Source: Verrucomicrobium sp.
GTDB lineage: Bacteria > Verrucomicrobiota > Verrucomicrobiia > Methylacidiphilales > UBA1321
Direction of reading: 5' to 3'
Length of the DNA stretch: 64,000 nucleotides
Assembly: GCA_017849585.1 (NCBI GenBank)
Contig: JAFIGT010000035.1
Location: 1 to 64,000, forward strand
The position numbers were made by a program, and so were the translations under genes. The notes under the pieces are model-generated. The model did no database searches. It saw nothing but the letters and a program-made list of their open reading frames with translations, and was not told where the DNA came from. Within the stretch, counting starts at the first letter, position 1. Each line of letters begins with the position of its first letter. Positions 29,567 through 61,991 of the stretch are shown one piece after another.

Positions 29567-29652
29567 AAAATTCCGGATCTATGATCCAGTGTTTTCGCTC
29601 TTTTGGCAAGTTTTCGATTTCGGGAAATTGTTGCCAGTGAAACAATGATCGC

Positions 29653-31358: not shown

Positions 31359-31360
31359 AA

Positions 31361-31440: not shown

Positions 31441-31520
31441 GAAAAGTGCAACTGGCTGCAATTGTTACCAATAAACCACAAGGATACATTGAATGGGAGG
31501 AAATCTTTCCGGTAAAAACT

Positions 31521-32465: not shown

Positions 32466-32501
32466 TTGGACTTCTTTCAAAAAGACGACGAGCGACTCGG
32501 C

Positions 32502-32530
32502 AAGGCGGTACTTTCGGTACCGCCTTTTTT
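32502..32530 (+). terminator. rho-independent terminator after the second PEP-CTERM gene
   Basis: Ten-base stem AAGGCGGTAC / GTACCGCCTT with a five-base loop, running into six T. Confidence 0.9.
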
Positions 32531-32631
32531 GGTGCCCGAAAGGATTAATGAGAACGTGGCGATTTTCGTTTTCATACAGGATAGTGCGTGATACAAGACA
32601 GTTTGAGGCGATTAATCCCGCTGATAACCAC

Positions 32632-35522: not shown

Positions 35523-35685
35523 ATGAAGAGGAATCTGCAAAAGCTCGGAGGTCGGGCGTCTACAAGGCGGCTGATGATGTGGCAGGCGTCGGAAAGAACG
35601 TCAAGGACAAATCCGATGCCTCACAGAATCAACAGGTTAATGATTGGATAAATTTGATGGTAAAAGCGACGTATTAAATTTGGTG

Positions 35686-37571: not shown

Positions 37572-37573
37572 CC

Positions 37574-37825
37574 ATGGCCACCGCTGAAAAAAAGGCACCC
37601 ACGCCTGAAGAGATCAAGACGTATTGCAAGGAAGCCTCGGAAAAGCTCGCCGCCCACCTCAAGGAAGGCGTCAAAGTCGGTTCGGAAGTCGGTCACATCA
37701 TTCACCGGAATGTCCTGACCGCGCAGAAGGAATTGCTCGAACACCACATCGGTCGTCTCGAGGCGCATCTGAAGAAATTGGATGCGGAATTGGAATCGGA
37801 AGCGCCTCGCGCCAAAAAGCGCTAA
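37574..37825 (+). CDS. small helical protein B of the NRPS operon
   Basis: The 83-residue protein has no known domain that I can name. It is helical throughout, with a coiled-coil-like block NVLTAQKELLEHHIGRLEAH followed by LKKLDAELE and a basic tail PRAKKR. It shares the pattern L-x-A-Q-x-E-x-L...E-x-x-L-x-x-L-D with the protein at 35789. The gene begins 2 bp after the ArsA stop, so it is probably translationally coupled to the ATPase. It could be a client, cofactor or adaptor of that ATPase; this is inference. Confidence 0.7.
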   Translation: MATAEKKAPTPEEIKTYCKEASEKLAAHLKEGVKVGSEVGHIIHRNVLTAQKELLEHHIGRLEAHLKKLDAELESEAPRAKKR

Positions 37826-37945: not shown

Positions 37946-40900
37946 ATGCGTTTATCCATCGGCCAGGAAGCGCTCTATTTTGAGCATCAGGCCAATCCGC
38001 ATTCCTTTGCTCTCAATGAGTGTACGTTGATGCGGTTGCGGTCGGAGGTCAACGTGACAGCGCTGCACCGCGCGCTGCAGCATCTCGTCGACCGGCACGA
38101 AAGTTTGCGCACCCATTTTCGCCTTACGGGGAAGGGTGTGGAAGCGATCGTCTCCCCGCGCGCGGAGGTCGATTTCCGTGCCATCGATGCCCGCGTCGGG
38201 GGCGAATCGGCTGTCGATGCCGATTTGGTGGCGCTTCAGAACCGGCAATTCGATTTGGAGCGGGACTCCCTCTTTTGCGCGCGGTTGTGGAGTCTTTCAC
38301 CGACCGATCACCGGCTGCTCTTTCTCTACCATCATCTTATCATCGATGGTTGGTCGTACTGGCTGTTTTTGGAAGAGTTGCGCGAACTCTATCGAAGTGA
38401 GTGCAGGGGTGAACCCCATCGACTGCCTCCGGTGGAGGAGCAGTACGAAAACTACGTTCACGCGCAGGAGGAATTTCTTGCGAGCCCCAAGATTGCCGCG
38501 TTGGCCGCCTATTGGGAAAAGAAACTGGCCGACGCTCCCCTGCAACTGAACCTGCCAACAGATCATCCCCGGTCCATGGATACGGATCACCGGGGCGATA
38601 GCGTGGGGGTCACCCTGTCGCCGGAACTCAGTGCCGCGTTGAGTGGACTCGCTGCCAGTCGCCGTACCAGTCTTTACACGCTCTTGCTGGCTGCCTACCA
38701 GTCGCTGATCCATCGCTACACGGGCCAGACAGACATGGCGATAACGTCGCCCGTCCACGGACGAAACGACAAGCGGTGGAATCAACTCGTGGGTTATTTC
38801 GTCAACCAGATCGTCCTGCGCGGACAACCTTCTGCGACGATATCATTCGAGGAATTCTGGACGCAGATCCGGACAACGGTTTTTGGCGCTTACAAGCATG
38901 CCGCCTATCCGTTTCCGCTAATGGTTCGCCGGGCGGCGCAACAGCAACGATCACGCTCCGCCATGGCGCAGATTTCCTTCGTGTATCAAAAAAGCCAGTT
39001 TCGGGATGAAGATCTGTTGCTCGTTTATCCCGGTGCAACGACGGATGACCGCGTTGATTTTGCCGGGCTGAATGCCTCGGGCATTATTCCACCGCAAAAG
39101 CCCTGCCAGTCGGAAATCGGTCTCATCGTTTCTGAAGCAAGACAGTCGTTGCGGCTACAGTTTACTTACCAGACGGCACTTTTCGAAGCGGTCACGATCC
39201 GCCGTTTCGCTGCGCATTTTCAAGAGATGCTGGAGGCGATTGTCCGCGATCCCTCGCAGCCTCTCGGAAAGTTGGGCGAGCTGGCCGATCTGCCGCGCCG
39301 GTCTCCGAAAGCAATGCCTGCAGTGATGCCGTCGTCCAAGTCGAGGACGGTCACCACGATGCTCGATCTCTTCGCGACGGCATGCGAACACCACGCGGCG
39401 CGGGTTGCGGTGGAATGCGATGGCGCTGTTCTCACCTATAAGGAACTCGATGCGTACAGCACCCGGCTTGCGCGATACTTGCGCACGGTGGGGGTGACTC
39501 GCGACGTCGTGGTCGGCTTGCTCGTCGAACGATCGCTGGAGGCAATTGTCGCCATGCTTGCCATTCAAAAAGCAGGCGGGGCCTATGTGCCACTCTCCCC
39601 GGATTATCCCAAGGACCGGCTGGAATATCTAGTGCAGGATGCGGGCGTGCGCGTGATTGTGACCACACCTGCAGACCGGCGACCTCTCGATCTTCCGGTT
39701 TGCTGGGTGGATCTGACGACGATCCCGGAGACGGTTCCGTCCAGCGTGGAGCTGCCCATACCCCACTCCTTGCAGGCGGCTTATGTCATCTACACTTCCG
39801 GCTCCACTGGAAAACCAAAGGGCGTCGTGGTGTCGCAAGGAAGCCTTGCGGCGTTGACTCATTCCATGATGCAGGGGCAGCGTCTTCATGCCGACTCGCG
39901 TATGTTGCAGATGACTTCGCTGACATTCGATGTGGTGGGTGCGGAACTCTATCCCACACTGCATAGTGGCGGGCGGCTTGTCATCCCGTCCCGCAGTGAG
40001 CTGCTGCCGGGACTGCCCACTGTGCAATTAATGGAGAGGGCAAAGATCACGCACTTTGTATGCACGCCTTCCGCGCTGTCACTTCTGCCCTATCGCGATC
40101 TGCCTTCGCTGGAAGTAGTCATCGTGGGTGGCGAAGTCATTTCGCCTGCCTTGAAAGAACGCTGGAGCGCGCGCCATTGTCTTATCAACGCCTATGGTCC
40201 CACGGAAACGACCATCATCGCCACAGCCGCGGAGGCCCCGCCCTCCGGAGAATTGCCGCCGATTGGCAAGCCGCTCGAAGAGGTGACTGTTTATGTGCTC
40301 GATGAAAATCTTCTGCCGCTGCCGCCCGGTGAACGCGGGGAAATTTGCATTGGCGGGGCGGGCGTTGCGCGCGGTTACTGTAATCGTTCCGATGTCACGG
40401 CTGCACATTTCGTGCCCGATCCTTTCAGTCCACTGCCCGGGGCGCGGATGTATCGTTCCGGCGATCTGGGGTACTGGCGGGAAGATGGCCAGCTTGAATT
40501 CCTGGGCCGTATTGATCAGCAGGTAAAGATCCACGGTCATCGCATTGAGCTGGGAGAAATCGAAGCCATCCTGCTTGAGCACGAGGCCATCACGGCGGCT
40601 GCAGTTGTTGTCCGCAAAAACCAGCGCGACGAAAACGAACTGGTTGCTTTTCTTTGCGCGACGCATGCGGAGGACTGGCGCGCGTATCTCGAGACACGAC
40701 TTCCTTTTTACATGGTCCCCGCTGCCTTTACAGAGTTGGAGATCATGCCGATCACCAGCCATGGCAAGATCGACCGTCAGAAATTACAGGAGATGCCGGT
40801 GTCGGACAGGCCGCCGGTTGCCAAGACTCCTCCGGAAACCGCGATGGAGAAACGCATCGCGGCGGTTTGGTCAGAAATGTTGCAGGTGGAGAATATCGGG

Positions 40901-43900
40901 CGGCACGATCATTTTTTTGCGCTGGGCGGCCACTCCCTGCTGGCCATTCGCGTAGCGGGACGAATTGGAGCGGATCTTTCGCTCGATATTCCCCGGACGT
41001 TGCGTGAATTTCTGGCTAATCCTGTCCTCTCGGAATGGGCTCGGCGGTTGGAGACGCTGCAAGCACCGGAGTCTGCCACGCCGAACGAGGTGCCGCTCGT
41101 GCATGAGGCGAACCGCGCCCACACGCCACTCTCGTTTGTTCAGGAGCAGCTTTGGTTTGTCAATCAACTCGACCCCGGCAATACGGCATACAACACGCCG
41201 TTTGCCCTGCGTTTACAGGGATCTCTTGATATCGACGCCCTTGCGCGCTCGGTCGATACGCTTGCGCAGCGACACGCCTCGTTGCGCACCTGTTTTCAGG
41301 CGAGTGGTACCGAACTGCAGCAGAAGGTTGTCGATTTGCACCTCCCGCTTGAGCAGGTTGCGTTGAGCGGGGAAACGGTTGAAGCGCGTCTTGCCGAAGC
41401 AACGGCCCATGTGCGCACGGTGCTCCAGCGACCGTTTGATCTGCGCACCGCGCCGCTGCATCGTGCGGTTCTCTATCCGTTGGCCCTGGATGATCATCTC
41501 TTGTTGGCGGAATTTCATCATATCATTGCGGATGGCTGGTCTTTCGGGATTTATCAGCGCGAACTCGCTGCGCTCTATGCCGATTTTTCCGCAGGCCGCA
41601 CGCCAGAGCTGCCATCTCTGCCGGTGCAATACAGCGATTTCGCTGCCTGGCAGCGCGAACGCCTTTCCAGCGAGCGATTGCAACAGCTCAACGACTACTG
41701 GCTGAAGCAGCTGGCGGACACCACGCCAACAGAATTGCCGTGGGACTATGCCCGTCCCGCGGTGCAGACATTTCAGGGCGCCATGTACCGCGGTCGTATC
41801 GAGCCCGCGTTGCTGGTGCGTTTGAAGCAGCTTGCGCGCGAGGAAAATGCCAGTCTCTATATGGCCTTGCTCGCGGCGTTCAACATTCTGTTGCATCGCT
41901 ACAGTGGGCAGGAGGATATCCTGGTCGGCTCGCCGCATGCCAACCGTCTGAGGCCTGAGGTGGAAGGGGTGATTGGTGCTTTTGCCAATGTGCTGGTCCT
42001 GCGTTCGCGTCCGACGCCGGACGAGTCGTACCGGCGCTTGCTCGCGGCCACGCGCGACACGGCCAATGCCGCATTTGCGCATCAGGAATTGCCGTTTGAA
42101 AAGCTGGTCAACCAACTCGGTCTCGAACGCGATCTCAGCCGCAATCCGCTCATTCAGGTCGTATTCGCCCTGCAGAATGCCGGCGGACAGGAGGCGTTGT
42201 GGCCGGGGTTGACGGTTCAGGAATTTGACGTTCCCGTTGACTCCACCCGTGTCGATCTGGAATGTCACGTTTGTGAGAAGGACGATGCAGCGGAAATAAT
42301 ATTCGTCTACAACACAGCCTTGTTTGCTCCGGCTACGATCGAGCGCCTCACCCGTTACTGGCTCTCTTTGATGGAGTCCATTGCAGAGACTCCCGACCGG
42401 CCTATTAAACAACTGGCCATGATGGATGCCGCTGAACGGCAGCGGGCGCTGGACTGGTCGCGTGGGGTGAAGGTGCGCGAGCGCGCGGGTGCGGGGCAGA
42501 CGCTGACGGCACTGCTGGAATATGCCGTGTTGGAGCACCCGCTCCAGAGCGCAGTGGAGTGCGATGGTGTCGCAATGAATTATCAGGATTTGCACATCGA
42601 AGCCAACAAGCTGGCGCGTTATCTCGTCGAGACACACGGGATCAAATCCGAACGCCGCGTGGGTGTGCTCATGGGACGTTCGATCGAATCGGTGCTGGCG
42701 TTTCTGTCCATTCAAAAAGCGGGTGGTGTCTATGTGCCGCTCGATCCAGATTATCCGGTCGCGCGATTGGAATTCCTGATCGCGGATGCCGGACTCGATT
42801 TGATTCTGACCGGAGAAAATAGCTCGCCGAAATTGACTCTTCCGTCACAGGTGACCTGTCTTGCGCTGAGCGAAGCACGCGCACAGTGTGCGGATGAAAC
42901 CGGCATGCCTCTGCCGCTGCGTTGCCAGGGAGAAAATGCAGCGTACATGATCTATACCTCTGGCACGACAGGGCAACCGAAGGGCGTCGTCGTCCCGCAT
43001 GCTGGCATTGTCAACACGGTTCTGGCGATGGTGCGGGATTTCGGGCTCAAGCCCGGCATGCGTTTCTACCATTTTTGCTCGCTCAGCTTTGACCCTTCCC
43101 TGGTGGAGATCGCGGGTTCCCTCGCTTCAGGAGCGACGTTGGTGATTGGTCGGAAGGACGAGACTGCGCCCGGTGAACCGCTCTGGCGTTTCCTCAGCCA
43201 ACAGCGCGTCACGCATTTACAAATCACTCCCTCGGCGCTCGCCTTTGTGCCGTGCCGGAAATGGCCGGAGTTGAAATTGGTGATCACGGGCGGAGAAAGT
43301 CTCCCGCAAGCTCTGGCGCTGCGCTGGCGCGAGCACGCGCGGATGATTAATGCATATGGCCCCACCGAGGTGTCCGTCTGTGCGACCCTCACGGATGCGT
43401 GGAAAAGTGCCACGCCTCCGATTGGTTTCCCACTGCCTAATACGCAGGTGTACATTCTCGATGCGACGTTGCAACCGGTTCCATCTGGTGTGCGTGGCGA
43501 GATTTACATTGGTGGCGCTGGAGTGGCTCGCGGGTATCATCAGCGGCCCGAGTTGACCGCCGAACGTTTTATTCCCGATCCGTTTTCCACCCAACCCGGT
43601 GCACGTCTCTACCGCACGGGCGATCAGGGACGTTGGCTCACGGACGGGCAAATTGAATTTCTCGGTCGCATTGACACTCAGGTGAAACTGCGCGGATTCC
43701 GCATCGAGCTTGGCGAAATTGAAGCGATATTGCTCGATCTGCCGGAAGTGCAGGATGCCGCCGTGATAGTGGCCACCGGCGCTCATTCGGAAAGCCTGGT
43801 GGGCTTCATTGCGGTGGGAGATCTCACTGGCAAGGATCAACTGCCGGACGAATACCTGCGACATCTGCGCGCGCTCTTGCCAACCCATTTGGTGCCTAAC

Positions 43901-46900
43901 GCACTTTATCTGATCGAGACGCTGCCCAGCACCCCAAATGGCAAGGTGGATCGAGCACGACTCATCCGCATGGCGGCGACACGCATGGCGGCGAAATCAT
44001 TCTCCGCGCCGTCGACTCCGATGGAACAGCGTGTCGCGGCGATCTGGAGCGAGGCGTTGGGTGTTGCACGTGTGGGCCGCGAGGACAGCTTCTTCGCGTT
44101 GGGCGGTCACTCGTTGCTCGCCACCCGCGTACTGGCCCGCTTGCAGGAAGACATTCCGCTGGATGTAGCGTCGGCATTGAAGAACTTTTTCCGGTATCCA
44201 ACGCTGGCGGAATTTTCCGCCGCATTGGAAACGAATGCGGAGACGGCGGACGATATTCCCTGCGAGCCGGGCCGGACCACCGCACCGCTGTCCTTCGCGC
44301 AACAACGGTTGTGGTTCCTGCATCAACTCTTCCCGCTCGACGTTTCGTACAACGTGCCGATTCAGTTCCGTCTGCGCGGGGCGATTTCGGACGAGGCGCT
44401 GACAGCGGCGGTGCAGGAGCTGATCGATCGGCACAGTATCCTTCGCACACGTTTTCGTCCCGATGGGCGCGGCGGCGCGATCCAGGAAATTGCGCCTTCC
44501 ATGCGCGCTCGCATTGAGAAACTGACCTTCTCCAAGAACGGTTTCACCGATGCGGGAGAGTGGGCGAATCATCATGCTTCCGCGTTTATTCAGGTCCCCT
44601 TCGATCTGGAGAAGGGGCCGCTGTTCCGCATGCAGTGCCTGCATCTTGGTGAAGGGGAATATCGTTTCGTTTGCTGCCTGCACCACATCATCTTCGACGG
44701 CTGGTCGGCTCCAATTTTCATCAACGAACTCTTTGACAATCTCGATCTGAAGCTGGGATTCAAACTCGTTACGCGTCCTCCGTTGCCCGTGCAATACGCG
44801 GACTTTGCCGCATGGGAACGTCAACCTGCACAAGAATCGCGCTGGCTCTCGGCGCTCGAATACTGGCGGCAACAGTTGCGGGATCTTCCCGCGCTCGAGT
44901 TGCCGGGGGATCACCCGCGTCAGGCAGCTCCGAGTGGTCGCGCCGGTCGTCTCTACTTCGAAATTCCGGCGGAAGTGCTGACAAAGCTTGAAATGCTGAC
45001 TCGTCAGTCCGAGGCGACCACTTATATGGGATTCTTGGCCGCGTTCCAATTTCTGCTCGGACGTTGGAGTGGGCAGGATGATTTTTCAGTCGGCACGGCG
45101 GTGGCCAATCGTAACCAGAAGGAATTGCAGAATCTGGTCGGCTTCTTTGTGAACAGTCTCGTGTTGCGGGCTGATCTGCGGGGGGCGGTGTCCTTCACGG
45201 AACTTCTGGCTCGCGTCCGCACCACGGCGCGCGATGCCTTTGCGCATCAGGAAATGCCATTCGAGCGGTTGGTGGAAGAACTGCATCCGAACCGGGAACT
45301 GTTCAATCCGCTTTTTCAGGTGGTCTGTGTCTTGCAGCAACCCCAGCAGGTGCATTACGAACGGACGCATTTCCTGGCAGACTGGGTGGCTCCGGAAGTC
45401 CCGCTGGCCCGCGTTGATATTGAACTTCACCTCTTCGCGCACGACAACGGTTTTTCCGGCGGGCTGGTCTATGATCGTGCCTTATTCGAACCTGAAACGA
45501 TCGAACAACTGGCGGCGCAATATGTCCGCTTGCTGGAAAAAATTGTTGCGGCACCGAACCGGCCCTTGCGGGAATTTGATCTGCGCACCGAAAAGGAAAT
45601 TCGCAATGGAAGCCCGTCGTCCCCTGCGGCGGCGGAGCCCGTATCCAGCGACTTTACCCAGCGCTTCTCCCTCGTCGCAGCCATCCATCCGGACCGCGTG
45701 GCACTTGAGGATAAGGATCGGTGCCTCTCCTATGGCGAGCTCGATGTGTTGACCGACCGTGTCGCCCGACGCCTGCAACAACGTGGCGTAGGTCCCGAGA
45801 CAATCGTCGGCGTGATGATGGATCGCAGCATCGAAGTGGTAGCCGCCATACTCGCCATCATGAAAGCGGGGGGTGCCTATGTGCCGCTCGACCGGAATTA
45901 TCCACCCGACCGGCTTGCGTTCATTGTGCGCGATATCGACCTGCAATACATCGTGACGGAGGGGCGTTCCCTGCCGGTGGAAGGTCGAATGATGGAATGG
46001 CTCGATTGGTCTTCACTTGCGGCGCCAGATGGTGGGAGGGGATCGGATAAAGGGTTTGCAGCGGCGGTGCTGCATCCTCAACAGGCGGCCTACCTGATTT
46101 ATACTTCCGGTTCCACCGGGTTGCCCAAGGGCGTTGTGGCAACCCAGGCGAGTCTGTGCGCTTCCATGGCGGCGCAAGCCGATGCGTACCGGATGGGGCC
46201 GGAATCGCGCATGCTACAAAATGCCTCACTCAATTTTGATGCGTCGGTTTTGGAAATTTTCAGTGCACTCTGGTCTGGCGCACGATTGGTCATCCCGGAA
46301 AAGAACGCGCGAATTCCCGGCCCGGAAATGATTCGGACCCTCCGACGGCATGCCGTGACGCACTTGGTCATTACGCCATCCGCGCTGGTTTCGCTTCCGG
46401 AAGCGGAGTTGCCCGAACTCCAGGTCATCGTCTGTGGTGGCGAGGCCTTACCGCAATCGGTCATCACCACGTGGAAACCGGGTCGCCTCCTGATCAACGG
46501 CTATGGGCCCACCGAGACGACAGTTTGCGTATCGATCGCCTCCGAATGGGAATGGAATCGCCGCGCTCCGATCGGTCGTCCACTGCCCACTACGCAACTT
46601 TATATTCTCGACGAGGAATTGCGGCCCGTGCCGGTCGGCGCACGCGGAGAGTTATACATCGGCGGGGCTCTCGTCACGCGGGGCTATCTGAATCGTCCGG
46701 ATGTCACCGCCGAGTACTTCATTCCCGATCCCTTCAGCGGTGAGCCGGGCGCGCGCCTGTACCGTAGTGGCGATTTGGGGCGCTGGCGTGCAGATGGGCA
46801 GATTGATTTTCTAGGACGCCGCGACGATCAGGTCAAGGTGCGCGGATTTCGTATCGAGCTCAGTGAAATCGAAGCTGCATTGCACGAGCATCCGAGCGTC

Positions 46901-49900
46901 AAGGAAGCCATCGTACTCCTGCGTGACAATGCACGGCAGGAACGCGAAATCGCCGCCTATGTCGTGGCCAAACCCGACGGGGAGCGATTGCAATCCGAGC
47001 GCGTGGGTGCGTGGCGACAACTGTACGACGACGTCATCGACAAGACGAGCCAAGCCGCCGATCCGGAACTCGATATTGTCGGCTGGAACAGTAGCTATGA
47101 CGGTCGTCCGCTGCCCGCCGTCGAGATGCGCGAATGGCGCGACCGCACCGTCGCGCAGATTCTCGCGTTGCAACCGCGGCGCGTGCTGGAAATCGGTTGC
47201 GGCACCGGTCTGCTGCTTTTGCCCACCGCTCCGCATGTCGAGGCCTATTGGGGTGTCGATTTTTCTGCTGCCTCACTGAAACGTGTGGGAGCGTCCGTGG
47301 AGCGCAAGGGCTGGAAGCACGTCCACTTGCTGAACCGTCGTGCGGACGAACTGGAAGATCTCACAGCGGAACACTTCGATCTCGTTGTCATCAATTCCGT
47401 CATTCAATATTTCCCGAGCAACGACTACATGCTCAAGGTGCTTGAGCGGCTCATTGCCATGCTGCCGGACGGTGCGCGTTTGTTCCTCGGCGACGTGCGT
47501 AATCTCGAGTTGCTTGCCACCATGCAGGCCTCGGTGGAATGGAGTCATGCGGCGGACGATTGCACACGCGAGGAACTGGCGCGTCGGGTGCGTCGCAAGG
47601 TGGAGGCGGAGACGGAGCTCTCCTTCAGTCCCGGCTGGATGCTGGCTCTGCCGGAACAGATCGAGCGCATTCATTCGGTCGATTTGCGCTGGCGGCGCAT
47701 GCCGTTCGCCAATGAACTTTCCAAGTTCCGCTACGATGCGGTCCTGCAGATTGGTCCTGCCACAGGCAGCCCTGTGCGGTCGTGGGAAACACTGGAGGTC
47801 GTTGCACCTGTGACGAGTCAGGCCCTCGCGCAGGATTTGGAAATCGCCGCTTGGGTGGAAGGCCGTAGCGAATGGGGAACCGCCGCGAGGACCGTGGGCG
47901 AATTCCGCAAGCTGCTCACAGCACACACACGTGCGCTGCAGTCGGACGATCTTGCGATCATCACCGGAACACGTTCACATGAAACCGCTCGCGAGCTGAC
48001 GAACAATCCGCTCCGAGCGCATATCACGCGGCAAGCGCAGGCCGATCTGCGCCGCTATCTGGAAGAGCGTTTGCCCGCGCACATGATCCCGTCGACGCTA
48101 TGCGTGCTTGATCATTTTCCCGTGAACCGCAGTGGCAAGGTGGATCGCGCCATGCTGCGCCAGATCGATGAGGACCGCCACGATGGCACGGTGATCGAAC
48201 CGCCCGCCACGGAGATGGAACGTCTCGTCGCCAAGGTATGGTCGGAACTTTTGCAAATCGAGGCGATCGGTCGTCACGACAATTTCTTTTCACTCGGCGG
48301 ACACTCCTTGCTCGCGATGCGGGTCATTGGTCGCTTGCAGGATTTGATCGATGTCGACGTTTCGACGGTGCTGCAGAGTTTCTTCGCCCGGCCCACGCTG
48401 GCCGAGTTTGCCCGCGAGCTGGAGCCCACCGCGCAGACCCGCGCCGTGTCGCGCATTCTTCCCGGCACGGCGTCGGGCGACATCCCGCTATCGTATGCGC
48501 AACAACGGTTATGGTTCCTGGAAAAATTATTCCCGGGACAGACCGCGTATCAATCGCCTTTCGGTCTGCGCATGACGGGCGCTATTCCCGCTGACTGTGT
48601 CCGGCAGGCCATGCAGGCGGTTTTGGATCGCCACAGTGCGTTGCGGACCATTTTTGCGACGCGACAAGGCCGCGCTGTGCAACTCGTGCAGGAGAACGTG
48701 GTCCTGCCCTTTTCCTTCGAGAGCTGGAATGGACAAGGCGACGCGCAAGCGTGGTTGCAAGCGCAGGCGAATGTGTTCATCCGCAAGCCGATCAATCTCG
48801 AGCGCGATCCGCTGATCAAGACGAAGTGGTTCCAGCTTCACGAAGGAGAACAGGTGTTGCTCTGCTCGATCCATCACATTGCCTTCGATGGGTGGTCGGC
48901 CCCGATTTTATTGAACGAATTTTTAAGCAATCTCGATGGTCTCCTCAGCGGGGCATTGCCGTTGCGTCCGCCCCTGGCCGTTCAATACAGCGACTATGCC
49001 GCCTGGGAGCGTTCACCGGAGCAAGAGAAGCGCTGGGGCGAATCGGCAACTCATTGGCGCGAAGCGCTCGCCGGTTGCGAGCCGTTGCGATTGCCGCAGG
49101 AAGGCGAACCTGCTGGCGAAGCTGGGCTGGTAAAAATTAAAATTTCCCGCGAAGTGTCCACGGCGCTGCGCGAGCTTGGCCAGCGGCACGGCGCTTCGCT
49201 TTTCATGACATTGCTTGCCGCGTTCGACGTACTTCTGTCCCGTTGGAGCGGGCAGGAACGATTCCTCATCGGTACCGGCATTGCCAATCGGCACCAGAAA
49301 GAGTTGCAGGAACTGGTCGGCTTTTTCGTGAACAGTCTGCCGTTGCCCGCAGATCTGTCCGGCCAGCCGACGTTCAACGAATTGCTCACCCGCACGCGCG
49401 ATACGGTGCGCACCGCTTTTGCGCATCAGGAAATTCCCTTTGAGCGGCTCGTGCAGGAATTGCAACCCGAGCGCACACTGCGCAATCCGCTCTTCCAAGT
49501 CGTCTTCCTTTTGCAAGATACACCGCCCGATCGCTGGCCGATCTCCCATTTCCAGATCGAGCCGTACGCGCTCGAATGGACGACTACGCGCATGGATTTG
49601 GAGTTGCATCTGAGCGATGCCGAAGAGGGGATTCACGGCGTCATGTATTACGACCGCTCGCTTTTTTCCAGCGGAACAATGGAACGCGTGGCACATCAGT
49701 TGGAGCGGATTTTACAACAGGTCGCGGTTGCGCCTGATCAACCGCTTTCGGAGATTCGTCTCATCGACGATCAGGAGCGAGACCGCTTGCTCCAACAGGG
49801 TAGTCAGAACGAAACGGCCACCAGCGTCCGCTCCATTTTGGAAGTGTGGAATGAGACAATCCGACTTCATTCCGACCATGTCAGCGTGCATTGCGGCGAA

Positions 49901-52900
49901 CGTATTCTCACTTATGCGGAATTTGACGCGCAGGCCAATCGTCTCGCCCGGCTTCTCTGCGCGAAAGGCGTGCGGCCCGAATCACGCGTAGCGCTCTTGA
50001 TGGGACGACGGCCGGAAACTATCGTGGCGATGATCGCCGTGCTCAAGGCGGGCGGCGCTTACGTGCCGCTCGATCCGGAGCACCCGGCGGAACGCTTGCA
50101 ATGGATGATCGATGATGCGGCGCCCCTGTTCGTTCTGACCGATGGCGCTTATTTCGAGATGGATCACCTCGTGTTGGATTGGGACGAGGCGATGCGTGAG
50201 GCTGCCGCGCTCGATGCCACGCCGTTACCGGTGGTGGCGCGTGGGGACAATCTGGCTTACCTGATTTATACATCTGGCTCCACCGGCTTGCCCAAGGGTG
50301 CGGCGATCACACACGGCAATCTCGGTCACGCCGCGGACGCGTTGGCCAAGGCCTACACTGTGCGACCCGATTCGAGCGTCATGCAACTGGCGACGTTCAC
50401 TTTCGACGCCTCGGTGGCCGAGCTCTTCATGGCCTTCGCGGTCGGGGCACGGCTGTTGATGCCTGCGACCAAGGATGAGTTGGTGGGCCAATCACTCTGG
50501 CAGTTGCTGAAAAAAGAGCAGGTTTCGCATCTGCAAATCACGCCGTCCGCGCTTGCGTTGCTGCCGGTGCAACCCTGGCCCGGATTGGAAGCGTTGATCG
50601 TCGTCGGCGAAGCGTTTCCGAAAGAACTTGCTGAAACGTGGCGCGCGCATGCGCGATTGATCAATGGCTATGGCCCGACCGAGGGAACGATTTGCGCAAC
50701 GTGCGCCACCGAATGGGCGGTCAATACGCAACCACCGATCGGCCGCCCGATCGAGCGCGTGACGGTTTATCTACTCGATAATGCGATGCAGCCGGTGCCT
50801 GTCGGTGCACCGGGCGAAATCTATATTGGCGGCGCAGGCGTGGCGCGTGGGTATTGGGAGCGAGTGGAATTGACCGCAGCGCGTTTCGTGCCAGATCCGT
50901 TCCATCCGCAGGAGGGGAAGCGATTGTATCGCACTGGTGATCGCGGTCGTTGGCGCGCGGATGGACAAGTCGAATTCCTCGGTCGAGTGGACGACCAGGT
51001 GAAGATTCGCGGGCAGCGCATCGAGTTGGGTGAAATTACAGCGGCTCTGTTGTCGCACTCCGGCGTGCGCGAAGCCGCCGTGCGCGTGGTGGAAGGCGAA
51101 GGCCGCGAAGCCACCTTGGTCGGCTATGTTGTGGCGGCGGAAGACGGCGAAGCCTTGAGCTATGGTCACGTTGCGGACTGGCAGCGACTGTACGATGGCC
51201 TGATGACGCAGCCGCACGCGGAAGCCACTTCGACTTTCAATATCAATGGGTGGAACAGTCTTTATACAGGTGGACCGCTTCCGGCGGAGACCATGCGCGT
51301 CTGGCAGCAGTCGATCACCCGGCAGATTCTGGCGTTGCAACCGCGCCGCGTTCTCGAAATTGGTTGCGGCAGCGGCCTGATGCTTTTCCCTGTCGCGCCG
51401 CATTGCGAAAGCTACTGGGGCACCGACCTCTCGCAAGCCACGTTGCAGCGGCTCGAGCGCGTCGTGCAGGAGCAGGGACTCAAGCAGGTCAAGCTCTGGC
51501 ATCGTCCCGCCGACCAGTGGGATGATTTTGTCGGGACGAGTGTCGATACCGTGGTGTTGAACTCGGTCGTGCAATATTTCCCCACACTCGATTACCTGCG
51601 GCAGGTGCTAGTGCAGGCCTTGCGCGTGGTGGCGCCGGGCGGACGCATTTTCCTTGGCGATGTGCGGCATCTCGAATTGCTGGAAGCTTTGTATGCCTCC
51701 GTGGAATTGGCTCGCGCCGGGGAGAGTGCCAGTCGCGAGGAATTGCGCCGTCGCGTCGCGTCGCGTCTGGAACGCGAGGAAGAGCTGGCGATCAGTCCCG
51801 CCTTCTTCCGCAACTTGACGGAGTTCAGCTCACGCCTGAAGCGGATTGAAATCCGGCCGCGCGGGGGAGTGGCCAACGAGCTTTCCAAATTTCGCTACGA
51901 TGTCGTCCTGCATGTGGATGATGCGGCGGAAACGATGGAATCATTCGGCTGGTCCGTCGAGGTGGAGAAGGCGCTCGTCCGTGATTGGCAGACATTGCTG
52001 TGGATACGCGATGAATTGATCGCTCCCGAGGTACGGACCGCAGGCGAGTGGCGCTCTCGAATCGAGCAGATACCAGAGCGCTTCACGGCGGAAGAACGGG
52101 TGGCCTTGCTCGCGGAGAAGATGGTGGAAGGCCGAGCGTTTTCCAATCATCCGCTGCACCACCGCTCCCGCGAACAACTCATTGTCGCCTTGCGCACCCA
52201 CTTGCGCCGCACCTTGCCTTCGGTGATGGTGCCATCGCACCTTCAGGTGCTGGATCGGATGCCGCTCACCGTGGGCGGGAAAATTGATTTACGCCGCCTG
52301 CCCGTGCCGGTCACGCAGGCGAACCGGGTGGACCGCGCCCCGGTGCAGCCGCGTCATCCGATGGAAGATCTCGTCGCCTCGGCCTACGCGGAAGTGCTCG
52401 GCCTGGAGCGGGTGGGCCCGACGGATAATTTCTTCGAGCTCGGCGGTCACTCGTTACTCGCGTACAGTCTCATGGAGAAGTTGCGGCAGCGCACAGGCCG
52501 CGAACTTTCGCTCACACGTTTCTTTACCGGCCCCACGGTGGAACAGGTCGCGGCGAATTTGTTGGAACAGACGCGCGAGGTGGCGTGGTCGCCGCTGGTG
52601 CCGATTCAGACCTCGGGGCAGGAGCCGCCTTTCTTTTGCGTGGCGCCGATTTTGGGCACGGTCTTTCCGTACTTCGAACTCGCCCGTCAGCTCGGTCCAA
52701 ATCAGCCATTCTATGGATTGCAACCGCGCGGCCTCGACGGCAAACAGGCTCCGCATGATTCCATCGAAGCGATGGCCAAAGAATTCGCCGAGGCGATTCG
52801 TTCCGTCCAGCCGCAAGGGCCGTACCGGGTCGGCGGCTGGTCGTTCGGTTCGCCAGTCGCGTTTGAAACGGCGCATCAACTGGAAGCAATGGGGCAAAGC

Positions 52901-53479
52901 GTGTCGGTGGTCATCAGTCTCGACGGCGCCTTGCCCACACCGCGACAAATCATGCCGCGGAGCAGTCTGGCCAAAGGTGTGTGGTGGGGAATGACCGCCT
53001 TGTTCCGTCAAACGCTTCCCTATCTCGGCGATTACCTGTATCTCGCCGCGCAGTCGTCGCGGCTGCTGCGTCCGGAATCCGCTGCTTCGCGTCAGCCGTG
53101 GTCTTTCACCGCATGGATTGGTGAACAGCTGGGCCGCCTCGGTGGCGCTCCGGTTGTATCCAAGCAGTCGCGACTCTTGCTCGTGGAGCAACCGCTGTGG
53201 CGTGGCATGTTTGCGGTGTTCCGCGCCAATCTGCGCGCCTTGCGGGGCTATCGTCCGCAGCCGATTCACGCGCCGCTGATTCTGTTCTATAGCGAGGCCA
53301 GCCCCGTGGGCCGTCAGCCGCTGGATACCTGGCGCGGGATGTCGCCAGCCATTGAAGAAGTGCCCGCTTCGGGCGAGCACATGACCATGCTGCGGTCGCC
53401 CCATGTTGAAGGCCTCGCGAAAGTGTTGCGCCTGAAATTCGATGCGGCCGTTACAGTCCGCTCCACGACCGGGTCGTGA
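37946..53479 (+). CDS. four-module nonribosomal peptide synthetase with two embedded N-methyltransferases
   Basis: The 5177-residue protein reads C(1-435)-A(470-940)-PCP; C(1060-1490)-A-PCP; C(2110-2545)-A with MT insert (~3015-3335)-PCP; C(3510-3940)-A with MT insert (~4405-4740)-PCP-TE(4890-5160). All C domains keep HHxxxDG (His pairs at 129, 1191, 2246, 3643). PCP serines in LGGHS are S997, S2056, S3454, S4836. TE nucleophile is S4966 in GWSFG. Both MTs carry a SAM motif (LEIGCGTG, LEIGCGSG). Eye-read A codes (positions 235-331): DVAVIGAII, DPVQIGAVC, DALVVGGVC, DAAQIVGIC; none matches one I know. There is no epimerase. Predicted: a tetrapeptide N-methylated at 3 and 4. The first C domain suggests an acyl starter. 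ATG 37946 was chosen over TTG 37868. Confidence 0.95.
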   Translation: MRLSIGQEALYFEHQANPHSFALNECTLMRLRSEVNVTALHRALQHLVDRHESLRTHFRLTGKGVEAIVSPRAEVDFRAIDARVGGESAVDADLVALQNRQFDLERDSLFCARLWSLSPTDHRLLFLYHHLIIDGWSYWLFLEELRELYRSECRGEPHRLPPVEEQYENYVHAQEEFLASPKIAALAAYWEKKLADAPLQLNLPTDHPRSMDTDHRGDSVGVTLSPELSAALSGLAASRRTSLYTLLLAAYQSLIHRYTGQTDMAITSPVHGRNDKRWNQLVGYFVNQIVLRGQPSATISFEEFWTQIRTTVFGAYKHAAYPFPLMVRRAAQQQRSRSAMAQISFVYQKSQFRDEDLLLVYPGATTDDRVDFAGLNASGIIPPQKPCQSEIGLIVSEARQSLRLQFTYQTALFEAVTIRRFAAHFQEMLEAIVRDPSQPLGKLGELADLPRRSPKAMPAVMPSSKSRTVTTMLDLFATACEHHAARVAVECDGAVLTYKELDAYSTRLARYLRTVGVTRDVVVGLLVERSLEAIVAMLAIQKAGGAYVPLSPDYPKDRLEYLVQDAGVRVIVTTPADRRPLDLPVCWVDLTTIPETVPSSVELPIPHSLQAAYVIYTSGSTGKPKGVVVSQGSLAALTHSMMQGQRLHADSRMLQMTSLTFDVVGAELYPTLHSGGRLVIPSRSELLPGLPTVQLMERAKITHFVCTPSALSLLPYRDLPSLEVVIVGGEVISPALKERWSARHCLINAYGPTETTIIATAAEAPPSGELPPIGKPLEEVTVYVLDENLLPLPPGERGEICIGGAGVARGYCNRSDVTAAHFVPDPFSPLPGARMYRSGDLGYWREDGQLEFLGRIDQQVKIHGHRIELGEIEAILLEHEAITAAAVVVRKNQRDENELVAFLCATHAEDWRAYLETRLPFYMVPAAFTELEIMPITSHGKIDRQKLQEMPVSDRPPVAKTPPETAMEKRIAAVWSEMLQVENIGRHDHFFALGGHSLLAIRVAGRIGADLSLDIPRTLREFLANPVLSEWARRLETLQAPESATPNEVPLVHEANRAHTPLSFVQEQLWFVNQLDPGNTAYNTPFALRLQGSLDIDALARSVDTLAQRHASLRTCFQASGTELQQKVVDLHLPLEQVALSGETVEARLAEATAHVRTVLQRPFDLRTAPLHRAVLYPLALDDHLLLAEFHHIIADGWSFGIYQRELAALYADFSAGRTPELPSLPVQYSDFAAWQRERLSSERLQQLNDYWLKQLADTTPTELPWDYARPAVQTFQGAMYRGRIEPALLVRLKQLAREENASLYMALLAAFNILLHRYSGQEDILVGSPHANRLRPEVEGVIGAFANVLVLRSRPTPDESYRRLLAATRDTANAAFAHQELPFEKLVNQLGLERDLSRNPLIQVVFALQNAGGQEALWPGLTVQEFDVPVDSTRVDLECHVCEKDDAAEIIFVYNTALFAPATIERLTRYWLSLMESIAETPDRPIKQLAMMDAAERQRALDWSRGVKVRERAGAGQTLTALLEYAVLEHPLQSAVECDGVAMNYQDLHIEANKLARYLVETHGIKSERRVGVLMGRSIESVLAFLSIQKAGGVYVPLDPDYPVARLEFLIADAGLDLILTGENSSPKLTLPSQVTCLALSEARAQCADETGMPLPLRCQGENAAYMIYTSGTTGQPKGVVVPHAGIVNTVLAMVRDFGLKPGMRFYHFCSLSFDPSLVEIAGSLASGATLVIGRKDETAPGEPLWRFLSQQRVTHLQITPSALAFVPCRKWPELKLVITGGESLPQALALRWREHARMINAYGPTEVSVCATLTDAWKSATPPIGFPLPNTQVYILDATLQPVPSGVRGEIYIGGAGVARGYHQRPELTAERFIPDPFSTQPGARLYRTGDQGRWLTDGQIEFLGRIDTQVKLRGFRIELGEIEAILLDLPEVQDAAVIVATGAHSESLVGFIAVGDLTGKDQLPDEYLRHLRALLPTHLVPNALYLIETLPSTPNGKVDRARLIRMAATRMAAKSFSAPSTPMEQRVAAIWSEALGVARVGREDSFFALGGHSLLATRVLARLQEDIPLDVASALKNFFRYPTLAEFSAALETNAETADDIPCEPGRTTAPLSFAQQRLWFLHQLFPLDVSYNVPIQFRLRGAISDEALTAAVQELIDRHSILRTRFRPDGRGGAIQEIAPSMRARIEKLTFSKNGFTDAGEWANHHASAFIQVPFDLEKGPLFRMQCLHLGEGEYRFVCCLHHIIFDGWSAPIFINELFDNLDLKLGFKLVTRPPLPVQYADFAAWERQPAQESRWLSALEYWRQQLRDLPALELPGDHPRQAAPSGRAGRLYFEIPAEVLTKLEMLTRQSEATTYMGFLAAFQFLLGRWSGQDDFSVGTAVANRNQKELQNLVGFFVNSLVLRADLRGAVSFTELLARVRTTARDAFAHQEMPFERLVEELHPNRELFNPLFQVVCVLQQPQQVHYERTHFLADWVAPEVPLARVDIELHLFAHDNGFSGGLVYDRALFEPETIEQLAAQYVRLLEKIVAAPNRPLREFDLRTEKEIRNGSPSSPAAAEPVSSDFTQRFSLVAAIHPDRVALEDKDRCLSYGELDVLTDRVARRLQQRGVGPETIVGVMMDRSIEVVAAILAIMKAGGAYVPLDRNYPPDRLAFIVRDIDLQYIVTEGRSLPVEGRMMEWLDWSSLAAPDGGRGSDKGFAAAVLHPQQAAYLIYTSGSTGLPKGVVATQASLCASMAAQADAYRMGPESRMLQNASLNFDASVLEIFSALWSGARLVIPEKNARIPGPEMIRTLRRHAVTHLVITPSALVSLPEAELPELQVIVCGGEALPQSVITTWKPGRLLINGYGPTETTVCVSIASEWEWNRRAPIGRPLPTTQLYILDEELRPVPVGARGELYIGGALVTRGYLNRPDVTAEYFIPDPFSGEPGARLYRSGDLGRWRADGQIDFLGRRDDQVKVRGFRIELSEIEAALHEHPSVKEAIVLLRDNARQEREIAAYVVAKPDGERLQSERVGAWRQLYDDVIDKTSQAADPELDIVGWNSSYDGRPLPAVEMREWRDRTVAQILALQPRRVLEIGCGTGLLLLPTAPHVEAYWGVDFSAASLKRVGASVERKGWKHVHLLNRRADELEDLTAEHFDLVVINSVIQYFPSNDYMLKVLERLIAMLPDGARLFLGDVRNLELLATMQASVEWSHAADDCTREELARRVRRKVEAETELSFSPGWMLALPEQIERIHSVDLRWRRMPFANELSKFRYDAVLQIGPATGSPVRSWETLEVVAPVTSQALAQDLEIAAWVEGRSEWGTAARTVGEFRKLLTAHTRALQSDDLAIITGTRSHETARELTNNPLRAHITRQAQADLRRYLEERLPAHMIPSTLCVLDHFPVNRSGKVDRAMLRQIDEDRHDGTVIEPPATEMERLVAKVWSELLQIEAIGRHDNFFSLGGHSLLAMRVIGRLQDLIDVDVSTVLQSFFARPTLAEFARELEPTAQTRAVSRILPGTASGDIPLSYAQQRLWFLEKLFPGQTAYQSPFGLRMTGAIPADCVRQAMQAVLDRHSALRTIFATRQGRAVQLVQENVVLPFSFESWNGQGDAQAWLQAQANVFIRKPINLERDPLIKTKWFQLHEGEQVLLCSIHHIAFDGWSAPILLNEFLSNLDGLLSGALPLRPPLAVQYSDYAAWERSPEQEKRWGESATHWREALAGCEPLRLPQEGEPAGEAGLVKIKISREVSTALRELGQRHGASLFMTLLAAFDVLLSRWSGQERFLIGTGIANRHQKELQELVGFFVNSLPLPADLSGQPTFNELLTRTRDTVRTAFAHQEIPFERLVQELQPERTLRNPLFQVVFLLQDTPPDRWPISHFQIEPYALEWTTTRMDLELHLSDAEEGIHGVMYYDRSLFSSGTMERVAHQLERILQQVAVAPDQPLSEIRLIDDQERDRLLQQGSQNETATSVRSILEVWNETIRLHSDHVSVHCGERILTYAEFDAQANRLARLLCAKGVRPESRVALLMGRRPETIVAMIAVLKAGGAYVPLDPEHPAERLQWMIDDAAPLFVLTDGAYFEMDHLVLDWDEAMREAAALDATPLPVVARGDNLAYLIYTSGSTGLPKGAAITHGNLGHAADALAKAYTVRPDSSVMQLATFTFDASVAELFMAFAVGARLLMPATKDELVGQSLWQLLKKEQVSHLQITPSALALLPVQPWPGLEALIVVGEAFPKELAETWRAHARLINGYGPTEGTICATCATEWAVNTQPPIGRPIERVTVYLLDNAMQPVPVGAPGEIYIGGAGVARGYWERVELTAARFVPDPFHPQEGKRLYRTGDRGRWRADGQVEFLGRVDDQVKIRGQRIELGEITAALLSHSGVREAAVRVVEGEGREATLVGYVVAAEDGEALSYGHVADWQRLYDGLMTQPHAEATSTFNINGWNSLYTGGPLPAETMRVWQQSITRQILALQPRRVLEIGCGSGLMLFPVAPHCESYWGTDLSQATLQRLERVVQEQGLKQVKLWHRPADQWDDFVGTSVDTVVLNSVVQYFPTLDYLRQVLVQALRVVAPGGRIFLGDVRHLELLEALYASVELARAGESASREELRRRVASRLEREEELAISPAFFRNLTEFSSRLKRIEIRPRGGVANELSKFRYDVVLHVDDAAETMESFGWSVEVEKALVRDWQTLLWIRDELIAPEVRTAGEWRSRIEQIPERFTAEERVALLAEKMVEGRAFSNHPLHHRSREQLIVALRTHLRRTLPSVMVPSHLQVLDRMPLTVGGKIDLRRLPVPVTQANRVDRAPVQPRHPMEDLVASAYAEVLGLERVGPTDNFFELGGHSLLAYSLMEKLRQRTGRELSLTRFFTGPTVEQVAANLLEQTREVAWSPLVPIQTSGQEPPFFCVAPILGTVFPYFELARQLGPNQPFYGLQPRGLDGKQAPHDSIEAMAKEFAEAIRSVQPQGPYRVGGWSFGSPVAFETAHQLEAMGQSVSVVISLDGALPTPRQIMPRSSLAKGVWWGMTALFRQTLPYLGDYLYLAAQSSRLLRPESAASRQPWSFTAWIGEQLGRLGGAPVVSKQSRLLLVEQPLWRGMFAVFRANLRALRGYRPQPIHAPLILFYSEASPVGRQPLDTWRGMSPAIEEVPASGEHMTMLRSPHVEGLAKVLRLKFDAAVTVRSTTGS

Positions 53480-54152
53480 CGGTCCAGTCCAGTCCTTCGA
53501 CCGCCAGCGCGGCGGCGTATTCGGGTGCGCAGGGGAGATCACTCACGCGCCAACGCGTCACTTCAGCCTGGGCGAAGCGCGTGGCGAGCAGGACTGAGGT
53601 GCAACCCGATTCCAGCGACACATCAAACTCTGCCAGAGGGAGCGAAAGCCCGTTGCCGCGCGCTTTCAAAAAGGCTTCCTTGCGCGTCCAGATTCGGAAG
53701 AATGCCGGGGTTTGTTCTGCAGCGGGAAGTTGAAAGAGAGCGTTCGATTCGCTCTTGGAAAAAAAACGCGTCGCGACCGTGGCGAGATCGGGCAGGGTTT
53801 TGATTTGCTCCACATCGACGCCCACTTCGTAATCGGGGCTGATCGCCACCAGCGCGAGATCACCGGAGTGCGAGAGATTGAAGTGCACACCGCCATGCGG
53901 TGGTTCCAGTTGCGGTTTTTCCCAGCCGTTTTGCCGAATCATGATGTCACCAGGAGCAAGCGAAACATGTTGTGTCAGCAAAGATCGTAACGCCGCGTGA
54001 CTGATCACGTAGCGTTGCCGGTCCCGCTCGAAATGAAAGGCGTCCGCCTTCGTGCGTTCGGCGGTGGAGAGGAGCGCGCGGCAGTCTTCGATCTGCGCGA
54101 GGTGCTTGGTCCAGGAGATGCACCAGACTTCCACCGTGCTGGGGCTAGTCAT
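53451..54152 (-). CDS. 4'-phosphopantetheinyl transferase (Sfp type)
   Basis: The 233-residue enzyme loads phosphopantetheine onto carrier-domain serines, here most likely the four PCPs of the adjacent synthetase. Sfp-type motifs are intact: FNLSHSG (91-97), GVDVEQI with Mg-binding D113 and E115, and IWTRKEAFLKARGNGL (154-169) with catalytic E159 and K163. It is convergent with the synthetase and overlaps its 3' end by 29 bp. Its ATG overlaps the stop of the LacI-type gene by 8 bp (ATGACTAG), so it is co-transcribed with that regulator rather than with the synthetase. Confidence 0.95.
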   Translation of the reverse strand: MTSPSTVEVWCISWTKHLAQIEDCRALLSTAERTKADAFHFERDRQRYVISHAALRSLLTQHVSLAPGDIMIRQNGWEKPQLEPPHGGVHFNLSHSGDLALVAISPDYEVGVDVEQIKTLPDLATVATRFFSKSESNALFQLPAAEQTPAFFRIWTRKEAFLKARGNGLSLPLAEFDVSLESGCTSVLLATRFAQAEVTRWRVSDLPCAPEYAAALAVEGLDWTVTTRSWSGL

Positions 54153-55164
54153 GGACCGCCGCGGTCGAGTGCCGCACGATGAGCGGAATTGGCAGCGGGG
54201 TTGTCGTGTAGGCCTCTGCGGAATCCGATTCGTCCTTCTTTTCGTCGATCTGGCGCAGGAGCAGTTTCAAGCCTTCCGCGCCGCACGCATAGAGCGGACT
54301 TTGCATCACTGTGAGTGCGGGTTCGGATAGGGAGAGCGTCGTGGCGCTTTCAAACGCGATAACGGATAGATCGCGCGGAATGGAGAGGCCCATGTTCTTG
54401 CTCTCGGAGATGAAGCCCGCAGCGAGGTTATCGTTGCTGATGACCACTCCCGTGGGCCGTTCGTGCGGCGAGAGGAGTTGCAGCGCGGCGGAGCGGCCCG
54501 AGTCGGTCAGGTCATTGCTGAATTGCACGTGCTTGGCATTCTCGGTCAGTCCGGCCTTGCGCATGGCTTCCATGTAACCGCTGTGGATTTCGTGATGGCT
54601 GCGATCGGTGATGTCAAAGGAGACCAGCGCGATGCGGCGATGGCCGAGGGCGAGAAGATATTCCGTCGCGTCCATGCCGCCTTGATACGCATTCGTGAGA
54701 ATCTGGCGTACGCCATCGTCCTGCAACTTGCGGCCCACCACCACATGCGGTTGACCAAGCTGATGCAGGTCCGAGGGCGGCAGATAGGCTTCATTCTGCG
54801 AAATGAGCAGGCAGCCGACGGCGCTTTTTTGGGCCACGAGTTGGCGCAATTCACGGCAGGAACATTGTTGATTGTCGAACGGGTGAATCGTCAGATCGTA
54901 CTTCAATCGAAAGGCCATGTCGGCGATGCCGCTGAGGATGACGGAGACGTAGCCGCTCTTGAAAACACCCGGATAGGAGGGGACGAGAATCAGAATGTTA
55001 TTGCGATCCGCCGCCGACCAGCGCGGCTGGAATTTCATTTCATCCATCGCGAGGCGGATGCGTTGTGCGGTCTCGGGTTTGACACCGGGGCGGCCATTGA
55101 GCACGCGGGAAACGGTGGCGGGAGAAGTGCCGCAAGCTTGGGCGATGTCGTAGATGGAAGGCAT
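54145..55164 (-). CDS. LacI-family transcriptional regulator
   Basis: The 339-residue protein has the N-terminal LacI helix-turn-helix (IYDIAQACGTSPATVSRVLN, residues 4-23) and a periplasmic-binding-protein-like sugar domain with NILILVPSYPGVFKSGYVSV and a C-terminal VVISNDNLAAGFISES block. ATG 55164 starts the HTH directly; the longer frame to 55233 adds 23 unrelated residues. It is divergent from a glycosidase gene and probably represses it through the palindrome at 55257. It is also the upstream partner of the PPTase gene, so PPTase supply may respond to a sugar. Confidence 0.92.
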   Translation of the reverse strand: MPSIYDIAQACGTSPATVSRVLNGRPGVKPETAQRIRLAMDEMKFQPRWSAADRNNILILVPSYPGVFKSGYVSVILSGIADMAFRLKYDLTIHPFDNQQCSCRELRQLVAQKSAVGCLLISQNEAYLPPSDLHQLGQPHVVVGRKLQDDGVRQILTNAYQGGMDATEYLLALGHRRIALVSFDITDRSHHEIHSGYMEAMRKAGLTENAKHVQFSNDLTDSGRSAALQLLSPHERPTGVVISNDNLAAGFISESKNMGLSIPRDLSVIAFESATTLSLSEPALTVMQSPLYACGAEGLKLLLRQIDEKKDESDSAEAYTTTPLPIPLIVRHSTAAVHD

Positions 55165-55256
55165 GGAAGTGAAAGGGAGGAAACTTTTTTGGCTTGCGGA
55201 ACGATACCGAGGGAAGCCGCAAAAGAGAAACAAATTAAATTAATATTGAAATTAAT

Positions 55257-56928: not shown

Positions 56929-57372
56929 ATGACTGATGGATCGACTGGCGCGGACCACTGGATCGTCACCCGTCGCCGGGTGGCGGCTGGCATGGCGCTG
57001 TTCTATTTCACCAATTCCGCGTTGATTGCACCCGGCGGCTGGCCTGTATTCGGCGAAGTCGCCTTCGCGCTCGTCACCATCGGCTTGTGGTTCACTCCCT
57101 GGATTTGGGCGCGAGCCTGGTGGCTCTGGTGGCCCAGTTATCTGCTCTCCACCCTCATCAGCGTTGCTCTTGTGAAAGTGATTGTCGCCGCGTGGGTCAT
57201 GCAATTCACGCATCCCGATGCGCCACTTTTCAACTGGCCGGTAGGGCTGCTCTATCTTTTTCTCAGTGCCAGTGTCTTCGGCCTTTTTTGTATCTGGCAA
57301 ACTAGTGCGCTTTTTGTTCACCGGGTGCAGCCGTGGTTCCGCAGCCTCCGGGGGCGAAGAAACAAAAAGTAA
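56929..57372 (+). CDS. hypothetical membrane protein
   Basis: The 147-residue protein is unrecognised. It has about four hydrophobic stretches (residues 18-35, 42-58, 62-90, 102-125), is Trp-rich in the middle (WFTPWIWARAWWLWWPSYLL), and ends in a basic tail RSLRGRRNKK. It is followed by another small membrane gene and a membrane phosphoesterase, all co-directional, which suggests a loose operon. Confidence 0.55.
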   Translation: MTDGSTGADHWIVTRRRVAAGMALFYFTNSALIAPGGWPVFGEVAFALVTIGLWFTPWIWARAWWLWWPSYLLSTLISVALVKVIVAAWVMQFTHPDAPLFNWPVGLLYLFLSASVFGLFCIWQTSALFVHRVQPWFRSLRGRRNKK

Positions 57373-61978: not shown

Positions 61979-61991
61979 GGCAGCGTGAGGC

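Follow-up and report, generated by a model that had tools for sequence, protein, structure and literature searches.

The nonribosomal peptide synthetase (NRPS) encoded at 37946-53479 of the stretch of Verrucomicrobium sp. DNA analyzed here (64,000 nucleotides, hereafter the window) opens with a condensation (C) domain, which an earlier note on this DNA took to suggest N-acylation while seeing no acyl ligase. To which class does this C domain belong, what could supply it with an acyl group, and what would the line make?

Domain organization and genomic setting

The NRPS open reading frame lies uninterrupted on the plus strand (ATG at 37946, stop codon ending at 53479; in-frame TTG 26 codons upstream, at 37868, as an alternative start) and encodes 5177 amino acids. 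Pfam matches comprise four Condensation, four AMP-binding, four PP-binding, and two methyltransferase domains and one C-terminal thioesterase (TE), and together with motif positions they give the order C1-A1-T1 / C2-A2-T2 / C3-A3(nMT)-T3 / C4-A4(nMT)-T4-TE. The earlier description of a tetramodular, single-protein line that starts with a C domain and ends in a TE is thus confirmed, with C1 at the very N-terminus. The features are as follows (coordinates, strand, description, basis).

37946..53479, +, tetramodular NRPS, 5177 aa (ORF, Pfam)
37946..39325, +, C1, ACP-fed-type condensation domain at the N-terminus, HHLIIDG (motifs, profiles, tree, structure model)
39353..40810, +, A1, code DVAVIGAIIK; sister species DAAVIGGVAK (Pfam, code reading)
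40853..41050, +, T1, LGGHSL (PP-binding)
41114..42442, +, C2, LCL type (profiles, tree)
42488..43975, +, A2, code DPVQIGAVCK (Pfam, code reading)
44027..44227, +, T2 (PP-binding)
44276..45598, +, C3, LCL type, sister of C4 (profiles, tree)
45656..46915, +, A3 core, code DALVVGGVCK (Pfam, code reading)
46916..47935, +, nMT3, N-methyltransferase within A3, VLEIGCGTG (Pfam, motif, tree)
47936..48160, +, A3 C-terminal piece with A10 lysine, SGKVDR (motif)
48224..48418, +, T3 (PP-binding)
48476..49792, +, C4, LCL type (profiles, tree)
49871..51070, +, A4 core, code DAAQIVGICK (Pfam, code reading)
51071..52105, +, nMT4, N-methyltransferase within A4, VLEIGCGSG (Pfam, motif, tree)
52106..52300, +, A4 C-terminal piece, GGKIDL (motif)
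52373..52555, +, T4 (PP-binding)
52583..53476, +, type I thioesterase, GWSFG and GEHM (Pfam, motif)
53451..54152, -, Sfp/HetI-like PPTase converging on the NRPS 3' end (Pfam / family match)
54145..55233, -, LacI-family regulator, 8-base overlap with the PPTase gene (Pfam)

The C, A, and T modules have intact catalytic motifs and a terminal TE, as in modular NRPSs: HHxxxDG is present in all four C domains, LGGHSL in all four T domains, and GWSFG plus a C-terminal His motif in the TE. The A10 lysine and the Asp235 equivalents are found in each of the four A domains, and amino acid activation is predicted from them. Both methyltransferases carry LEIGCG(T/S)G and are inserted between the A8-type motifs (GRRDDQVKVRG in A3, GRVDDQVKIRG in A4) and A10 (SGKVDR and GGKIDL, respectively), which is the arrangement of N-methylating A domains and agrees with the two N-methylating modules noted earlier. 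The protein lacks an epimerization (E) domain; C2, C3, and C4 are each preceded by an LGGHSL carrier with no upstream E domain, as expected of LCL domains.

At 4.8 Mb, the assembly is 96% complete, and the window opens one of its contigs (113 kb); this gene is its sole NRPS. By RpoB the organism most likely falls within the Verrucomicrobiota: a stretch of 492 residues shares 74% identity with its counterpart in an Opitutales genome, against 59% or less over full length for Omnitrophota, Acidobacteriota, Planctomycetota, and Ignavibacteriota, with incomplete matches in two fragmentary genomes left out of the comparison. The PPTase gene overlaps it tail to tail by 29 bases, a separate AcpS-sized PPTase is encoded elsewhere in the genome, and the LacI-family protein may regulate the locus. 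An orthologue (87% identity over the whole protein) occurs in one of the two other genomes of the genus, in the same gene neighborhood on both sides (flanking genes syntenic and 84-99% identical), and nMT modules are absent from all remaining family genomes examined. Among 387 genomes of the phylum nothing is nearer than 36% to C1, and in a contig collection covering 84,980 species the best C1 match, with the window's own and very near records left out, is 36-37%. A near-identical synthetase, which the earlier note named as a refuting find, thus did not turn up in these two collections outside the genus.

Several other genes of the window were recorded. Directly upstream of the NRPS (36387-37825) are an ArsA ATPase with an HSP20-like C-terminal domain and a mostly helical 83-aa ORF, both 96-97% conserved in the sister species, with no close ArsA orthologue in the other ten family genomes. 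An MFS transporter (34071-35540, minus strand), possibly an exporter, shares conserved synteny with the NRPS. On the other side, 55281-56864 and 56929-57372 have no significant Pfam match and are 95% and 94% conserved in the sister genome. A run of glycosyltransferases (22026-32465; three GT9 heptosyltransferase-like, several GT4) has PEP-CTERM proteins beside it (29653-30447 and 31446-32465), and 58793-63998 encodes an RND pump (ACR_tran) and a membrane fusion protein with a heavy-metal binding domain, CusBA-like, followed by a DUF2490 protein.

Class of C1 and possible source of the acyl group

We classified the C domains of the 79 best-matching named loci by the domain that precedes them, either an ACP (GxDSL; PKS or FAAL) or a PCP (LGGHSL). 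The best C1 matches among these loci are mostly ACP-fed, and the named neighbors of C1 come after PKS ACPs, FAAL-ACPs, or a free ACP with FcoT. We made one profile from 36 ACP-fed domains and another from 108 PCP-fed ones; under eight-fold cross-validation, none of the PCP-fed and 83% of the ACP-fed domains scored positive. C1 scored +63 bits and the sister C1 +70, against -60, -83, and -63 for C2, C3, and C4, with most examples fetched by similarity to C1, a selection bias that extra PCP-fed domains from the same loci lessen but do not remove.

A careful maximum-likelihood search groups C1 and its orthologue with 21 ACP-fed domains (support 100/100), and the same tree places C2, C3, and C4 among PCP-fed domains (100/100). 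The AU test rejects a tree uniting C1 and C2-C4 in one clade (p-AU = 0.0015) but does not reject one that keeps C1 on the PCP side, a constraint that also allows a position at the base of the ACP-fed group (p-AU = 0.33). Quick C-domain trees place C1 in the same way; because the AU test on the first of them left C1 + C2-C4 unrejected and turned up a better constrained tree, that tree was set aside for the careful search on fewer rows. The branch leading to C1 is long, and the residue behind HHxxxDG is Tyr in C1 and His in the sister C1, compared with Leu, Met, Ile, or Val in ACP-fed domains. The ACP-fed C domains of Nostoc sp. TH1S01 and Aliterella atlantica lie inside the PCP-fed clade, a hint that ACP use arose a second time.

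Similarity to canonical Starter domains is low, phmmer giving C1 45-47 bits against those of CDA and RzmA (4jn3, 7c1h) and 162-181 bits against LCL-type chains, with few Starter references in the comparison. An AlphaFold model of C1 has a complete C fold (pLDDT 87.6), and a class assignment from structure was abandoned since LCL, DCL, and Starter structures match it within a few Z units.

Judged by sequence, then, C1 is neither an ordinary LCL domain nor a canonical Starter and belongs with the C domains fed by acyl-ACPs (PKS or FAAL). Profiles, tree, and the AU test against a clade with C2-C4 set it apart from PCP-fed domains, and it would branch either within or at the base of the ACP-fed clade, which is formed by C domains downstream of ACPs. 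In context it differs from these, having no ACP in cis or in an adjacent gene. It stands first in the line, where it would acylate residue 1, but its sequence is not close to Starters of the CDA, RzmA, and surfactin type. The starter type suggested in the earlier note consequently does not hold in the strict sense; N-acylation at C1 is still likely, and the opposite outcome considered there, an LCL domain fed by an upstream protein, is contradicted by that grouping and by the lack of any other NRPS in the assembly.

We searched for a donor system near the gene and in the rest of the assembly. No acyl ligase, ACP, or ketosynthase (KS) is encoded by the neighboring genes of the window, and no dedicated loader was found elsewhere, although a distant loader or ACP might escape detection in an assembly that is 96% complete; the earlier remark that no acyl ligase is present is borne out to this extent. 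The assembly contains no PKS (its only two KS proteins are both of FabF size), no FAAL, and no detected FadD-type ligase. One ACP was found outside the NRPS, on another contig, and it is a housekeeping protein that matches TIGR00517 and adjoins a FabF-sized ketosynthase gene. There are two other adenylating enzymes, an acetate-CoA ligase and an MFS-PlsC-AMP-ligase fusion of Aas (acyl-ACP) type; the fusion, which matches acyl-[ACP]-phospholipid O-acyltransferase best (below the cut-off of that family in a truncated reading), is the only long-chain acyl-activating enzyme found in the genome. The 83-aa ORF upstream of the NRPS (37574-37825) was considered as a dedicated ACP and rejected, having neither a PP-binding match nor a DSL motif, and no link was found for a patatin (32455-33756) considered as an acyl donor enzyme.

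Given the phylogenetic class of C1 and a gene content of one ACP with no PKS, FAAL, or FadD, the simplest donor is acyl-AcpP, and C1 probably takes it directly from fatty acid synthesis. The strongest competitor, which we nevertheless regard as unlikely, is a divergent Starter-like domain acting on free acyl-CoA, as in the synthesis of rhizomide, holrhizin, glidobactin, and surfactin. The gene layout is the same, with C1 at the N-terminus and no ACP or ligase in the cluster: the clusters of RzmA-Cs and HolA-Cs lack both, these domains accept acyl-CoA in vitro, and their authors left open the capture of acyl-ACP from primary metabolism (PMC7804268). The predicted fold of C1 would also suit LCL, DCL, and Starter classes about equally. 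Against acyl-CoA stand the distance of C1 from the solved Starters, its grouping with ACP-fed domains, and the absence of a FadD-type acyl-CoA ligase from the assembly, although acetyl-CoA or another short acyl-CoA could still serve. The Tyr of C1 (His in the sister C1) occupies the position that gates acyl chain length in RzmA and HolA (PMC7804268); if C1 shares this gate, a transfer across subtypes, a short chain would be favored.

It is considerably less probable that C1 is vestigial or silent, so that synthesis would begin on an unacylated residue 1 and give a plain tetrapeptide or ring. No dedicated acyl donor is seen near the gene, as such a reading would have it, but C1 retains HHxxxDG and a full fold, and C1 and its orthologue (78% identical) differ most at third codon positions, which indicates that C1 is under constraint. 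A peptide or polyketide delivered to C1 by another megasynthase is hardly credible: although the relatives of C1 mostly come after PKS ACPs, the assembly encodes no further C domain, no PKS, and only the housekeeping ACP.

With acyl-AcpP as the donor, the line might work as follows. The Sfp-type PPTase next door would arm T1-T4, and C1, to judge by its class, would join the acyl chain from an acyl-ACP, most simply the acyl-AcpP of fatty acid synthesis, to aminoacyl-1 on T1. C2-C4 would add residues 2, 3, and 4. N-methylation by nMT domains inside A domains is well established, and from their position nMT3 and nMT4 would use SAM to N-methylate residues 3 and 4 while these are bound to T3 and T4. 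The TE would then release N-acyl-X1-X2-(N-Me)X3-(N-Me)X4 as an acid or a ring.

Divergence of module 1 and internal history of the line

The two orthologues differ unevenly along their length. Amino acid identity is 78% in C1, about 63-64% in A1, 68% in T1, and 84-88% in module 2, compared with 93-100% in modules 3-4 and the TE (A3 and A4: 93-98%). The codes of A2, A3, and A4 are the same in both species, and that of A1 changes from DVAVIGAIIK to DAAVIGGVAK. The pattern extends to silent sites: third-base identity at four-fold sites of conserved residues is 0.41 over residues 60-1150 and 0.69 beyond (13 versus 49 sequence intervals, Mann-Whitney P = 1.5e-7), and it is 0.35 in A1 versus 0.59-0.81 in modules 2-4; in flanking genes, 62-86% of the codons at conserved residues are identical. 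Third codon positions are far more diverged than first and second ones, which indicates purifying selection over all NRPS domains.

Module 1 (C1-A1-T1) of one copy was therefore probably swapped by recombination for that of a more distant homologue, a reading drawn from two genomes. Fast adaptive change in place of recombination is an unlikely account: in its favor, the comparison involves two genomes only and the A1 domains (64%) are still mutual nearest relatives, but fast protein change alone would not make silent sites diverge as well. Since neither A1 domain has a nearer relative than the other, the donor would be a related synthetase. A paralogue in the same genome was rejected as the source of the A1 difference on the same observation and because there is no other NRPS, and foreign origin by composition was likewise set aside, GC3 being even across domains and near the flank value. 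The products of the two species probably differ in residue 1, module 1 having sharply diverged or been exchanged; between the two known carriers the N-methylated C-terminal part would be retained and residue 1 altered.

The earlier note saw a duplication in modules 3 and 4, citing LALQPRRVLEIGCG and ANELSKFRYD. A motif search confirms that both occur twice; the pair recurs in other nMT domains (e.g., PKRVLEIGCGTGLLL, QNELTQFRYD), so these family-wide motifs are weak evidence of duplication. The claim holds for parts of the modules: C3 and C4 are sisters in the careful tree (100/100), and so are nMT3 and nMT4 with moderate support (94/91) and only 45% identity. It fails for the A domains, where A3 and A4 (46.5% identity) are no nearer to each other than other pairs and, by path length, A1 goes with A3 and A2 with A4. 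Set against 90 other A domains, the four group as a single clade (SH-aLRT 100). With two sister pairs, A3 and A4 not sisters, and a single A-domain clade, the line probably expanded long ago by duplicating its own units, which were then mixed, C1 being recruited from the ACP-fed class.

Predicted product and comparison with known systems

The domain order predicts a product of the form N-acyl-X1-X2-(N-Me)X3-(N-Me)X4. The specificity codes are as unfamiliar as the earlier note had found them: the first eight letters of all four gave no match in the literature searched, and apart from the orthologues none of 225 A domains of the fetched loci shares more than six of nine code positions with them. 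Code endings of the Cys331 type presumably lean to aromatic residues, and Gln278 in A2 and A4 fits no specificity code known to us.

On balance we think it likely that the protein is a self-contained lipopeptide synthetase, with an acyl-ACP-type C1 start, two N-methylated residues, and a module 1 exchanged between species. The more specific combination, in which no dedicated loader exists, the acyl chain comes from the single housekeeping ACP, and C1-A1-T1 is an exchangeable cassette on a fixed N-methylated back end, is put forward tentatively, as somewhat less likely than not. To our knowledge, few nonribosomal peptides of Verrucomicrobiota have been characterized, and an N-methylated lipopeptide is predicted here from this phylum. 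Acyl-ACP capture by a C domain could be tested cleanly in this genome, which has a single ACP, no detected FadD, and only one NRPS. The difference in module 1 suggests an exchange unit already tested by evolution that NRPS engineering might use.

In product class, a short acyl peptide with several N-methyl residues, the prediction resembles the carmabins, dragonamides, and almiramides, N-methylated linear lipopeptides of cyanobacteria; the likeness is one of product class only, the organisms and loading systems being different. C1 falls in the clade of ACP-fed C domains of PKS-NRPS and FAAL-ACP-NRPS lines, many of them cyanobacterial or from Chloroflexota, but those lines have an ACP in cis or in a neighboring gene and the Verrucomicrobiota synthetase has neither. 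In the Halotia branconii cluster (FadD, FcoT, free ACP, NRPS; isonitrile-lipopeptide-like), a C domain of the C1 clade, about 35% identical to C1, lies downstream of a free ACP gene; its dedicated ACP, FcoT, and ligase have no counterpart here. RzmA and HolA (rhizomide, holrhizin; PMC7804268) acylate residue 1, as is predicted here, through an N-terminal C domain in a cluster with no ACP or acyl ligase, but their C1 is a true Starter using acyl-CoA, whereas the present C1 groups with ACP-fed domains and modules 3 and 4 carry nMT domains. That NRPSs diversify by recombination, both inside a gene and between genes, is well established (PMC9205934). In microcystin McyB1/McyC (PMC2174460), natural replacement of the adenylation domain alters residue specificity and retains the rest of the line, as proposed here, but there the A domain alone is replaced and C domains are not transferred, whereas the divergence here spans C1-A1-T1 and the start of C2. 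A modular lipopeptide synthetase is itself of a familiar kind; what is uncommon is that a C1 of the ACP-fed type has no loader and stands in a genome with a single ACP, together with the probable exchange of module 1.
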